The notes under the pieces were generated by a model. The model saw only the letters and a program-made list of their open reading frames with translations. It had not been told where the DNA came from and ran no database searches. Of a stretch of 64,000 nucleotides of DNA, positions 27,174 through 30,400 are shown piece by piece. Origin of the DNA: an uncultured bacterium (lineage in GTDB: Bacteria > Bacteroidota > Rhodothermia > Rhodothermales > UBA10348); assembly GCA_943788505.1 (NCBI GenBank), contig CALSQR010000001.1, positions 434,001 through 498,000 of the forward strand, read 5' to 3'. Made by a program: the position numbers and the translations under genes. The first letter of the stretch is position 1; every line of letters starts with the position of its first letter.

Positions 27174-27267
27174 GAGAGGCCTTACAGGAAACAAGGAGCA
27201 CTTCTCCCGGTACGCCCTTTAGAAATTGTTTTGTTCGAAAATCATTGCAGTATTGGTAGAATCAAGA

Positions 27268-27825
27268 GTGAAGTCGGACACACCCTCCTCCCGTATTAAA
27301 AGCACAACCGTTGTCGGCATCCGGCACCATGGACGCGTTGTACTGGGTTCAGATGGGCAGGCCACTATGGGCGATACCGTCATGAAGAGGCATGTCAAAA
27401 AGGTCCGGACACTATATAACGGACAGATTCTGGCCGGCTTTGCGGGTGCAACGGCAGATGCGTTCACACTTTTTGAGCGTTTCGAAGAGAAGCTCCAGCA
27501 ATATGGAGGAAATATCACTCGCTCAGCCGTGGAACTTGCCAAGGACTGGCGTACTGATCGGTATCTGCGAAAGCTAGAGGCTCTCCTAGCCGTTGCTTCT
27601 CACGATAAGTTGCTGTTGATTAGCGGAACGGGTGACGTGATTGAACCTGATGATGAAATTCTAGCCATTGGGTCTGGTGGTTCCTATGCCCTTGCCGCAG
27701 CGAGAGCAATGCTCAAACACGCGCCCCAATTGGACACCCGCACCATGGTGGAAGAGTCTCTACTGATCGCCTCTGACATCTGTATTTATTCGAATGACAA
27801 TTTGACCATCCTCGAACTTGAGTAA
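27268..27825 (+). CDS. hslV: ATP-dependent protease subunit HslV (ClpQ)
   Basis: The core [24 protein letters not shown] contains the catalytic N-terminal Thr pair (TTVVG) and, farther on, RRALLAV-like and [14 protein letters not shown] motifs. The rest follows the family to [22 protein letters not shown] at 27268 is chosen because it leaves an 11-12-residue prefix ([12 protein letters not shown]) before the catalytic Thr; the frame is open from a TTG at 27226. In E. coli the Thr directly follows Met, so here a propeptide must be removed. hslU lies one gene downstream, separated by a NYN gene. Confidence 0.9.
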
Positions 27826-27887: not shown

Positions 27888-28904
27888 ATGGCATCTCGCA
27901 AGTCATCCTATCTTCCGCGCAGCCGGAATGCAGTTATTTTGATCGATTACACCAATGTTTTCGGTGTAATCTCTGAACGAATCGATAACGACCAGCCCGA
28001 TGCAGTCGTGTTGGACTTGGTCGCGTCACTCAAACGACACGTTTCAGACCATTTACATCTTAAACCGCTCAGAACGCTTGCTTTCGCCAACCTGCCGCCT
28101 GGAAATACTGGTGGACACCGTGCGACAGGAGCCTGGCTATCTGCGGGCATAGAACCGCGCTTTTCCTACGCCCGCTCCACCGATGAGGCGTCTGCTATCG
28201 ACCTAGCAATGGAGGCCATGGAGCTATCCGCTGAGCTGGGTCAAGCAACAGCATTTGTGGTTCTATCAGGAAACCAGTGGTTCGTACCACTCGTGCAGCG
28301 ACTCTATGGGAAAGGGCATTTTGTATTGATGTCCACACTCGAATCCCCTTCGCAACCTGATGACCTACCATCCGATTGCCAGGATTTGTATTTGAATGCG
28401 GAATTCCTGCTTGGCGGCCCAGGACGTAAGATGGATTTAGTTCGGTCTGAAAACGATGATAATGACACATCTAGCGAGTCTCAGCGTCCGACTGAAACAA
28501 CACCTTTGGGTGATTCGGCCGCGCGACGCACACTGGAATCAATTGATTCTTACTTCGGACAGTATGAAGAGATTTACCTCACCCCTTTGCTTCGCAAGTT
28601 GTCTGAGGTTATGGACGAGCCGGACGATGAACCCAAGATTTTGATCAATGATCTCGAAGAAGCTGGTGCTGTTTGGCTTGAGAAAAGACGCGGCTTTCCC
28701 CACAACTACACGGTGCTCATGATGAATCTTAAGCATCCGGATGTCGCTGAAATCAAGGAATCAAACGCCTCTAGCACATTCTTAGAGGAGGAAGACGATG
28801 ATTTCGACGATTATGATCGCGATGGGTACGACGATTACGACGACGAATCTGACGACACAAACAACACGGACGCGGACGATACCGACGATTATCGCGCATC
28901 TTGA
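27888..28904 (+). CDS. NYN-domain protein with C-terminal winged-helix-like region and acidic tail
   Basis: About 338 residues from ATG 27888 (a TTG two codons earlier is open too). Residues 15-170 resemble the NYN/LabA fold: ILIDYTNVFGV (first Asp), DEASAIDLAMEAME (second Asp), FVVLSGNQWFVPLVQRLYGKG. In NYN nucleases the last motif normally has SGDxDF, but here both acidic positions are N and W, so activity is doubtful. Then comes a OST-HTH-like stretch (YEEIYLTPLLRKLSEVM ... GAVWLEKRRGFP) and an Asp-rich tail (about 300-338). RNA binding is possible. The gene sits between hslV and hslU, where normally nothing intervenes. Confidence 0.75.
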   Translation: MASRKSSYLPRSRNAVILIDYTNVFGVISERIDNDQPDAVVLDLVASLKRHVSDHLHLKPLRTLAFANLPPGNTGGHRATGAWLSAGIEPRFSYARSTDEASAIDLAMEAMELSAELGQATAFVVLSGNQWFVPLVQRLYGKGHFVLMSTLESPSQPDDLPSDCQDLYLNAEFLLGGPGRKMDLVRSENDDNDTSSESQRPTETTPLGDSAARRTLESIDSYFGQYEEIYLTPLLRKLSEVMDEPDDEPKILINDLEEAGAVWLEKRRGFPHNYTVLMMNLKHPDVAEIKESNASSTFLEEEDDDFDDYDRDGYDDYDDESDDTNNTDADDTDDYRAS

Positions 28905-28927: not shown

Positions 28928-30400
28928 ATGGGACTCCAGCAGGAAATGACACCGCATGAGGTCGTAGCTGAACTAGATCGCTATGTGATCGGGCAGCACG
29001 ATGCGAAAAAGAGCGTTGCAATCGCTCTTCGCAACCGGTGGAGACGGCTAAACGCCTCACTGGAGTTGCGTGATGAGATCATGCCGAACAACATCATCAT
29101 GATCGGTCCAACGGGCGTTGGGAAAACAGAGATAGCCCGTCGATTGGCTAAGCTCTCTGGCGCCCCATTTATCAAGGTCGAGGCCACCAAGTTTACAGAG
29201 GTGGGTTACGTCGGACGAGACGTCGATGCGATGATTAGAGACCTGTGCGATATCGCGATCAACATGGTTCGCGAAGAGCACACCGAATCCGTTCAGGAGA
29301 AGGCGCAGAAAAGAGCCGAGGAACGGATACTTGATATCCTGATTCCTCCCGCACCTCCAAAACCACCTGTTCGTCCCAATTTAGGCTCTACACGCCCTAG
29401 TATGTCGCCCGACACTGCAGGAGCTACATCTGGCGCCCCAGCAGCGACTGATGCGAACATGTCCCTAGGTGGATCCAATACTAATGGTGCCGCAGAGGAA
29501 GACGCCCTTCGGTCTCGAACCCGGGAAAAATTCCGAAAGATGCTGCTTGCCGGTGAATTAGATGAACGGGAGGTCGAAGTTGACGTTGCCGCCGACCAGT
29601 CCTCGATGCTACAGGTCTTTGGGCCTATGGGAATGGAGGAGATGGGCGTCAACCTTCAAGATCTTTTCGGCCAAATGGGTGGAAAAAAGAGCAAGAAACG
29701 CCGTCTTCCGGTCTCAGAGGCTCGTGAGTTACTCGCTCAAGAGGAAGCCCAGAAGCTCATAGATATGGATAAGGTGACCAAGCAAGCCCTCGAACGGGTG
29801 CAGCAGTCTGGTATTGTGTTCATCGACGAAATTGACAAAGTGGCTACCCGAAGTAACGGCGGCAAGAGCGGACCCGATGTATCTCGAGAAGGTGTTCAGC
29901 GAGACCTCTTGCCAATCGTTGAAGGATCTGGCGTCATGACCAAATACGGAATGGTCAAGACGGATCACATCCTGTTCATCGCATCGGGTGCATTCCATAT
30001 TGCAAAACCAAGTGATCTCATCCCGGAATTGCAGGGTCGTTTTCCAATTCGGGTGGAGCTGCAAAGCTTGACTGAGGAGGATTTTTTCAAGATCCTTACC
30101 GTCCCAAAAAATGCTCTGATAAAGCAATATGTCGCACTCATGGCATCGGAGGGAGTAAAAGTAGACTTTACCGAAGGCGCTGTTCGCGAAGTTGCTAGAA
30201 TGGCAGCTGCCGTAAATGAGGAAGTAGAAAATATTGGTGCACGTCGGCTTCACACCATTCTTACGACATTGCTCGAGGATCTACTCTTTGATGTCCCAGA
30301 TGCGATGCGTGATGATTCCTTCGCCGTTGACGAAGCGTTGGTTCAGGCCAAGCTTGCCGACGTAGTCGAAAACAGGGATCTCAGTCAGTATATCCTCTGA
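28928..30400 (+). CDS. hslU: ATP-dependent protease ATPase subunit HslU (ClpY)
   Basis: 490 residues, some 45 longer than E. coli HslU. Walker A is GPTGVGKTE (60-68), Walker B VFIDEIDK (about 298-305), and the sensor region [28 protein letters not shown] is present. GYVGRD is the pore motif. The intermediate (I) domain (about 110-255) carries a Pro/Ser/Gly-rich insert (about 138-190). C-terminal LSQYIL is the tail that docks in HslV. It unfolds and feeds substrates to HslV in the cytoplasm. TGATG overlap with the next gene. Confidence 0.95.

Follow-up and report, generated by a model that had tools for sequence, protein, structure and literature searches.

The window, a stretch of 64,000 nucleotides from an uncultured member of the Rhodothermales, encodes on its forward strand the peptidase HslV (ClpQ; 27226..27825; Pfam Proteasome, E 1.1e-27, and reading of the sequence) and the AAA+ unfoldase HslU (ClpY; 28928..30400; ORF and Pfam). 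Between them, on the same strand, lies a gene for a protein of 338 aa (27888..28904, from the ATG at 27888 to a stop ending at 28904), separated from the hslV stop (27825) by 62 nt and from hslU by 23 nt. Its product consists of a NYN domain (residues 14-176; 27927..28415), a linker (residues 177-206; 28416..28505), a C-terminal winged helix (residues 207-290; 28506..28757) and a disordered acidic tail (residues 291-338; 28758..28901) in which 23 of the 48 residues are Asp or Glu. A sequence-only reading of the locus had placed a NYN-fold gene between hslV and hslU, all in one direction, and had given it a long Asp tail; the position and an acidic tail are borne out. The window hslV has no in-frame ATG start (27226-27300), the probable start being TTG 27253 or GTG 27268, and with either of these a short propeptide precedes the Thr-Thr pair. 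HslV requires an N-terminal Thr.

Pfam assigns the NYN domain (PF01936) with E 2.4e-6 and 28.6 bits against a curated cut-off of 24.2, and finds otherwise nothing notable in the protein. At E 0.1, PF01936 matches all 52 members of our alignment, which was built from 59 loci after seven had been skipped (partial, or start motif unmatched). An AlphaFold2 model from eight sequences predicts two folded domains, one NYN/PIN-like at residues 14-176 and one a winged helix at 210-300; the linker between them is disordered, and so is the tail (pLDDT below 50 from residue 297). The modelled NYN domain has the same fold as the NYN domain of MARF1 (5yaa, 6fdl) and as VPA0982 (2qip) over 146-148 residues: it matches 5yaa_C with a VIA Z of 15.9 (2.7 A, 146 residues), a second MARF1 structure with Z 15.8, and 2qip with Z 13.7 (3.1 A, 148 residues). 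The window protein differs from MARF1 in lacking the catalytic acids, and MARF1, as described in PMC6294520, instead carries RRMs and LOTUS domains.

The conserved core of the protein is the winged helix, which the sequence-only reading had overlooked. Mean pairwise identity is 60% in this domain, 32% in the NYN domain and 14% in the linker (residues 177-204), and over 100 genomes reaches 69% for HslU and 71% for HslV. No Pfam family matches the C-terminal domain. Modelled separately, it is predicted to be a winged helix (pLDDT 85) whose nearest solved folds include SarX at Z 9.6 (4.9 A, 92 residues), a MukBEF head-module chain at Z 9.4 (2.6 A, 83 residues) and regulators of the ArsR/MarR type. 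These matches to a model indicate a common fold and no family, as their Z scores barely exceed the background quoted for the tool. The C-terminus had been proposed to resemble an RNA-binding region; a distinct domain is indeed predicted there, but its net negative charge leaves the RNA-binding part of the proposal unsupported.

Bacterial proteins that join an LK-nuclease (DUF88/NYN) domain to OST-HTH are described in PMC2848206 and resemble the window protein in having a winged helix-turn-helix after a nuclease domain of NYN type. The NYN profiles match (hhalign 97%), whereas the window-order protein differs in its winged helix (hhalign about 1%), its decayed metal site and its acidic tail. 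According to the account in PMC2848206, the NYN-type nuclease and OST-HTH architecture is a predicted RNA binder, and the genes around the bacterial versions show no conserved association with other RNA-processing systems that are known; the fixed linkage to hslV and hslU in the window's order contrasts with these versions. An OST-HTH/LOTUS identity for the C-terminus was rejected at the profile level, on the hhalign value of about 1% against OST-HTH proteins of the same phylum (30 loci fetched, 16 readable, 14 dropped) and the absence of a PF12872 match in G000. No OST-HTH structure appeared among the structural matches listed. PF12872 matches were found in three of 60 relatives, all in genes other than the NYN-winged-helix gene. 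Three genomes of the order encode separate paralogues that combine NYN with OST-HTH, in frames of 272-310 codons (G015, L113; G022, L169; G045, L112). The NCBIfam model TIGR00288 does not match the window protein and matches 16 of the 52 aligned members weakly (best 1.8e-5).

The gene was detected in 56 of the 60 relatives searched and, using the 52-row profile on 244 genomes of the class, in 108 of 114 Rhodothermales genomes, which rules out a gene limited to one strain. The other orders of the class gave weak NYN-domain matches only, below 26 bits among the matches listed. HslV is present in 231 of the 244 genomes and in 112 of the 114 within the order; the two without it (G003, 62% complete, and G218, 84% complete) lack the NYN gene too. 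In four genomes of the order, three from family f4 (G029, G043, G053) and G203, hslV directly adjoins hslU without the NYN gene, and hslV is likewise next to hslU at every hslVU locus read in other orders, from five genomes in all. HslUV thus does not need the NYN protein, as these four genomes keep hslV and hslU without it. In G203 a short gap alone separates hslV from hslU (L098, 6080-6330), a natural deletion that offers a useful comparison. Our family set comprises 106 proteins in which a single frame encodes the two domains, from 105 genomes; G007 counts twice, with a second, truncated copy on a separate contig (L095, C72). In G198 (L105), hslV and the NYN gene each matched three times with identical scores, on three contigs; these are likely duplicates from the assembly. 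A role in anti-phage defence was rejected, as the PADLOC profiles returned no family at E 1. A mobile or viral origin was rejected as well, with no plasmid match and 27 pattern matches in viral contigs, none of them confirmed as a relative.

Conservation of the gene order among relatives, named in the sequence-only reading as a check, is high: 100 of 122 classed loci have hslV, the NYN gene and hslU on the same strand, nine have hslV-hslU, and the remainder are partial, mostly at contig ends. Adjacency to hslU holds at 99 of 103 loci (a count that leaves out G213), the four misses all being loci without the NYN gene, and adjacency to hslV at 96 of 102, one of the misses (G213) being an artefact of stop-to-stop frames in which the two genes are actually 32 nt apart. 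The corresponding values for the outer neighbours are 80 of 100 for dacB-hslV and 63 of 88 for hslU-GNAT; Fisher tests on these counts treat the genomes as independent, though they are related. The wider block purH-mreC-dacB-hslV-NYN-hslU-GNAT is largely conserved. Three loci, all in family f12, are disturbed. In G216 the NYN gene lies with hslU, and hslV is on a different contig beside dacB; in G213 it lies with hslV, and hslU is on a different contig; in G214 a TetR-type regulator gene of opposite orientation (L104, 6797-7417) stands between hslV and the NYN gene. They represent three of 11 informative loci in the clade with an intact metal site (see below) versus none of 91 with a decayed one, a post hoc comparison that concerns one clade. 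A frame of 1216 codons in G216 was discarded as a spurious upstream extension.

In a tree of HslU and HslV proteins from 109 genomes, family f4 clusters with the other orders and is separated from the remainder of the order (support 97). G203 falls inside this remainder, its exact place having a support of 33 by a quick method. Since the other orders and the earliest-branching family have hslV directly beside hslU, the simplest account is that the gene was probably inserted once between hslV and hslU, after f4 split off, and was later lost at least once, in G203.

The five acids of the 2qip site align with window positions 20, 103, 109, 129 and 131. The window protein retains Asp20 (27945..27947), the first metal-site acid, and has Glu at 109 (28212..28214), where intact members have Asp. 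Residue 103, equivalent to an Asp in 2qip, is Ala (28194..28196), and Asn-Gln-Trp replaces Asp-x-Asp at residues 129-131 (28272..28280). The altered last acidic motif noted earlier from the sequence (SGNQWF) is therefore present, as LSGNQWF at residues 126-132, and the predicted loss of metal-binding acids holds for positions 103, 129 and 131, with no obvious replacement. An intact acid at a shifted position was the alternative to be considered; the only candidate is D105, which lies on the helix of residue 103 two positions further along, and it is no evident substitute because position 105 is Gln in 64 of 106 members. Judged by its residues at the five positions, the window protein does not qualify as a catalytically competent NYN ribonuclease. 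As reported in PMC6294520, MARF1 has Asp358, 426, 427 and 452 as its active-site acids, and altering 426/427 strongly lowers activity. The same source describes the PIN domain of SMG5, which is without the metal acids, as inactive. SMG5 resembles the window protein as a PIN-like fold that persists after loss of metal acids and RNase activity, and differs in acting in eukaryotic mRNA surveillance, which is unrelated to HslUV.

Across the 106 aligned members, D20 is found in all 105 readable rows. Position 103 is acidic in 71 members and position 109 is Asp or Glu in 100; position 129 is Asp in 48 and Asn in 43, and position 131 is Asp in 12. Acids at 20, 103, 109 and 129 occur together in 40 of 105 genomes, and Asp at all five positions in 12 of 105, confined to families f9 and f12. 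The complete window-type site (D20-N23-A103-E109-N129-W131) is common to 12 genomes. In the window's own family the site is mostly SGNxW, and Trp131 occurs in 22 of 24 rows, so this change is fixed and not noise. The missing acids are a property of the clade and not of the strain. On the HslU and HslV tree (98 rows), the minimum number of changes is 15 for D129, five for the acid at 103 and one for D131. The NYN fold is still under purifying selection, since its dN/dS is 0.008-0.27 in close pairs (12 of 13 pairs estimable, G001/G006 being saturated; HslU values include upstream frame and were not used).

Homologues outside the operon provided an outgroup. A search with the winged helix alone in 394 genomes of the phylum returned 41 matches from the order itself and one other, G298, from another class. 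G298 is the only match among 149 genomes of its class; its family, f40, yielded eight matches among 60 genomes, all in genus g124. These eight proteins have the same two domains as the window protein, a NYN domain and the same winged helix (winged-helix profile match 99.4%), and differ from it in that the site is intact, the acidic tail is absent and the gene is not beside hslUV. All five acids are present in 8/8 (D-N-D-D-D-D), and hslV and hslU are absent from the 16-19 kb read around the gene; HslV is present elsewhere in the 11 of 11 g124 genomes searched. When the family tree is rooted on these homologues, the intact clade of f9 and f12 is sister to the 94 decayed members, in a tree for which the tool warned of long branches. 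This topology, with its intact outgroup, indicates that linkage to hslUV came first and that change then ran from intact to decayed sites. The motif alignment bears out the absence of acids in the window protein and limits it for the family, since they are intact in f9, f12 and the unlinked sister group. As the acids are intact in all eight unlinked homologues versus 12 of 105 linked genomes, the alignments indicate that repeated decay of the metal site followed the gene's entry into the hslUV operon.

The winged helix and the tail follow the linkage differently. Seventeen columns of the winged-helix alignment (41 rows) are invariant, including F223, Y226, L231-R236, P249-K250, R267, G269, P271, T275 and H283. 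Positions including R236, E265, R267, G269 and H283-P284 are common to the unlinked homologues, so the constraint on this domain dates in part from before the linkage to hslUV. The acidic tail is present in linked proteins, not in their unlinked relatives, and accompanies linkage: its median length and net charge are 52 aa and -16 in the 94 decayed members, compared with 36 aa and -14 among the 12 intact ones and 9 aa and -1 among the eight unlinked proteins. The net charge of the winged helix is -8 in decayed, -10 in intact linked and -1 in unlinked proteins, and such a negative charge fits protein contacts better than nucleic-acid binding. At pI 4.3 the window protein is the third lowest of the 50 window ORFs; the median is pI 5.2, so the window proteins are generally acidic and the charge argument is weakened. 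No HslU or HslV alignment column cleanly separates genomes with the NYN gene from those without it. A basic cluster in HslU was considered as a dock for the acidic tail and set aside as not specific to carriers, as it occurs in carriers and non-carriers alike.

The best reading, a tentative one, is that a former nuclease now serves HslUV as a non-catalytic partner, possibly in the role of an adaptor. It is favoured because the non-catalytic domain is constrained, the gene is locked between those of the protease and the unfoldase, and the tail was apparently acquired with this position. The same linkage could be that of a hitch-hiker, a protein with an independent job caught in a syntenic block without a functional tie to HslUV. 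The broad conservation of that block would suit such a protein, as would the unlinked homologues, which do not sit beside hslUV although g124 has HslV, and the four genomes that have hslVU without the gene. G213 and G216 point the same way, since they show that the triple is breakable, which counts against a partnership. We nevertheless consider a hitch-hiker unlikely, as linkage to hslV and hslU outlasts that of dacB and GNAT, and metal-site decay and the acidic tail are restricted to the linked clade. That the family still contains working nucleases, with four-acid members (20, 103, 109, 129) cutting RNA and decayed members using a rearranged site, seems very unlikely. The four acids found together in 40 of 105 genomes, the invariant D20 and the purifying selection on the NYN domain are consistent with it; the window group lacks acids at both 103 and 129, and the effect of changes at MARF1 Asp426/427 and the inactivity of SMG5, both as given in PMC6294520, argue against activity in such members.

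Rather unlikely, but to be weighed with these, is a nucleic-acid-binding regulator whose decayed NYN domain and winged helix would attach to RNA or DNA, the hslVU transcript being one possible target, and adjust expression with no cleavage involved. The retained NYN fold, the resemblance of the winged helix to bacterial transcription regulators (SarX and the ArsR/MarR types), the conserved basic positions R236, K250 and R267, and the RNA binding predicted in PMC2848206 for the NYN-type nuclease and OST-HTH architecture are in its favour. The net charge of -8 to -10 on the linked winged helices and the low pI of the whole protein speak against it, as does a winged helix that is not detectably OST-HTH. 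No Rfam element was matched near the locus, and promoter-like matches there are at chance level (four versus 3.5 expected).

The partnership with HslUV can be laid out as a series of steps. After the f4 split, an ancestor of the order would have acquired, between hslV and hslU, the gene for a NYN (PIN-like) ribonuclease with an attached winged helix. There it would have become a co-oriented, probably co-expressed gene whose product is mostly non-catalytic and acts together with HslUV. This protein may bind HslU or HslUV, the NYN fold and the winged helix forming a putative scaffold for clients or RNPs and contact to HslU coming from either the disordered tail with its acidic residues or the winged helix. 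Substrates might then be delivered or gated, as by adaptors of other AAA+ proteases. The most specific form of the proposal, a dedicated HslUV adaptor or gatekeeper in which the former RNase pocket became a binding surface, the winged helix and the new tail engage HslU and RNA-linked clients are fed in, is possible but doubtful. Adaptors exist for other AAA+ proteases; we know of no dedicated HslUV adaptor, and a search of the literature by title and abstract opening returned neither such an adaptor nor a linkage of NYN with hslVU. The gene has the conserved linkage to a protease that is expected of an adaptor, which is supportive, not sufficient. The earlier interpretation from the sequence is therefore partly supported: the conserved order and the loss of acids hold, and the roles it suggested, an adaptor or a dead nuclease used for RNA binding, are candidates.

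The family shows with unusual clarity an enzyme domain that appears to have lost its active site many times within one operon while its partner domain was held constant. As an order-wide third gene of the hslVU operon, with a series from intact to decayed nucleases and a natural loss, it makes the question of an HslUV adaptor testable.
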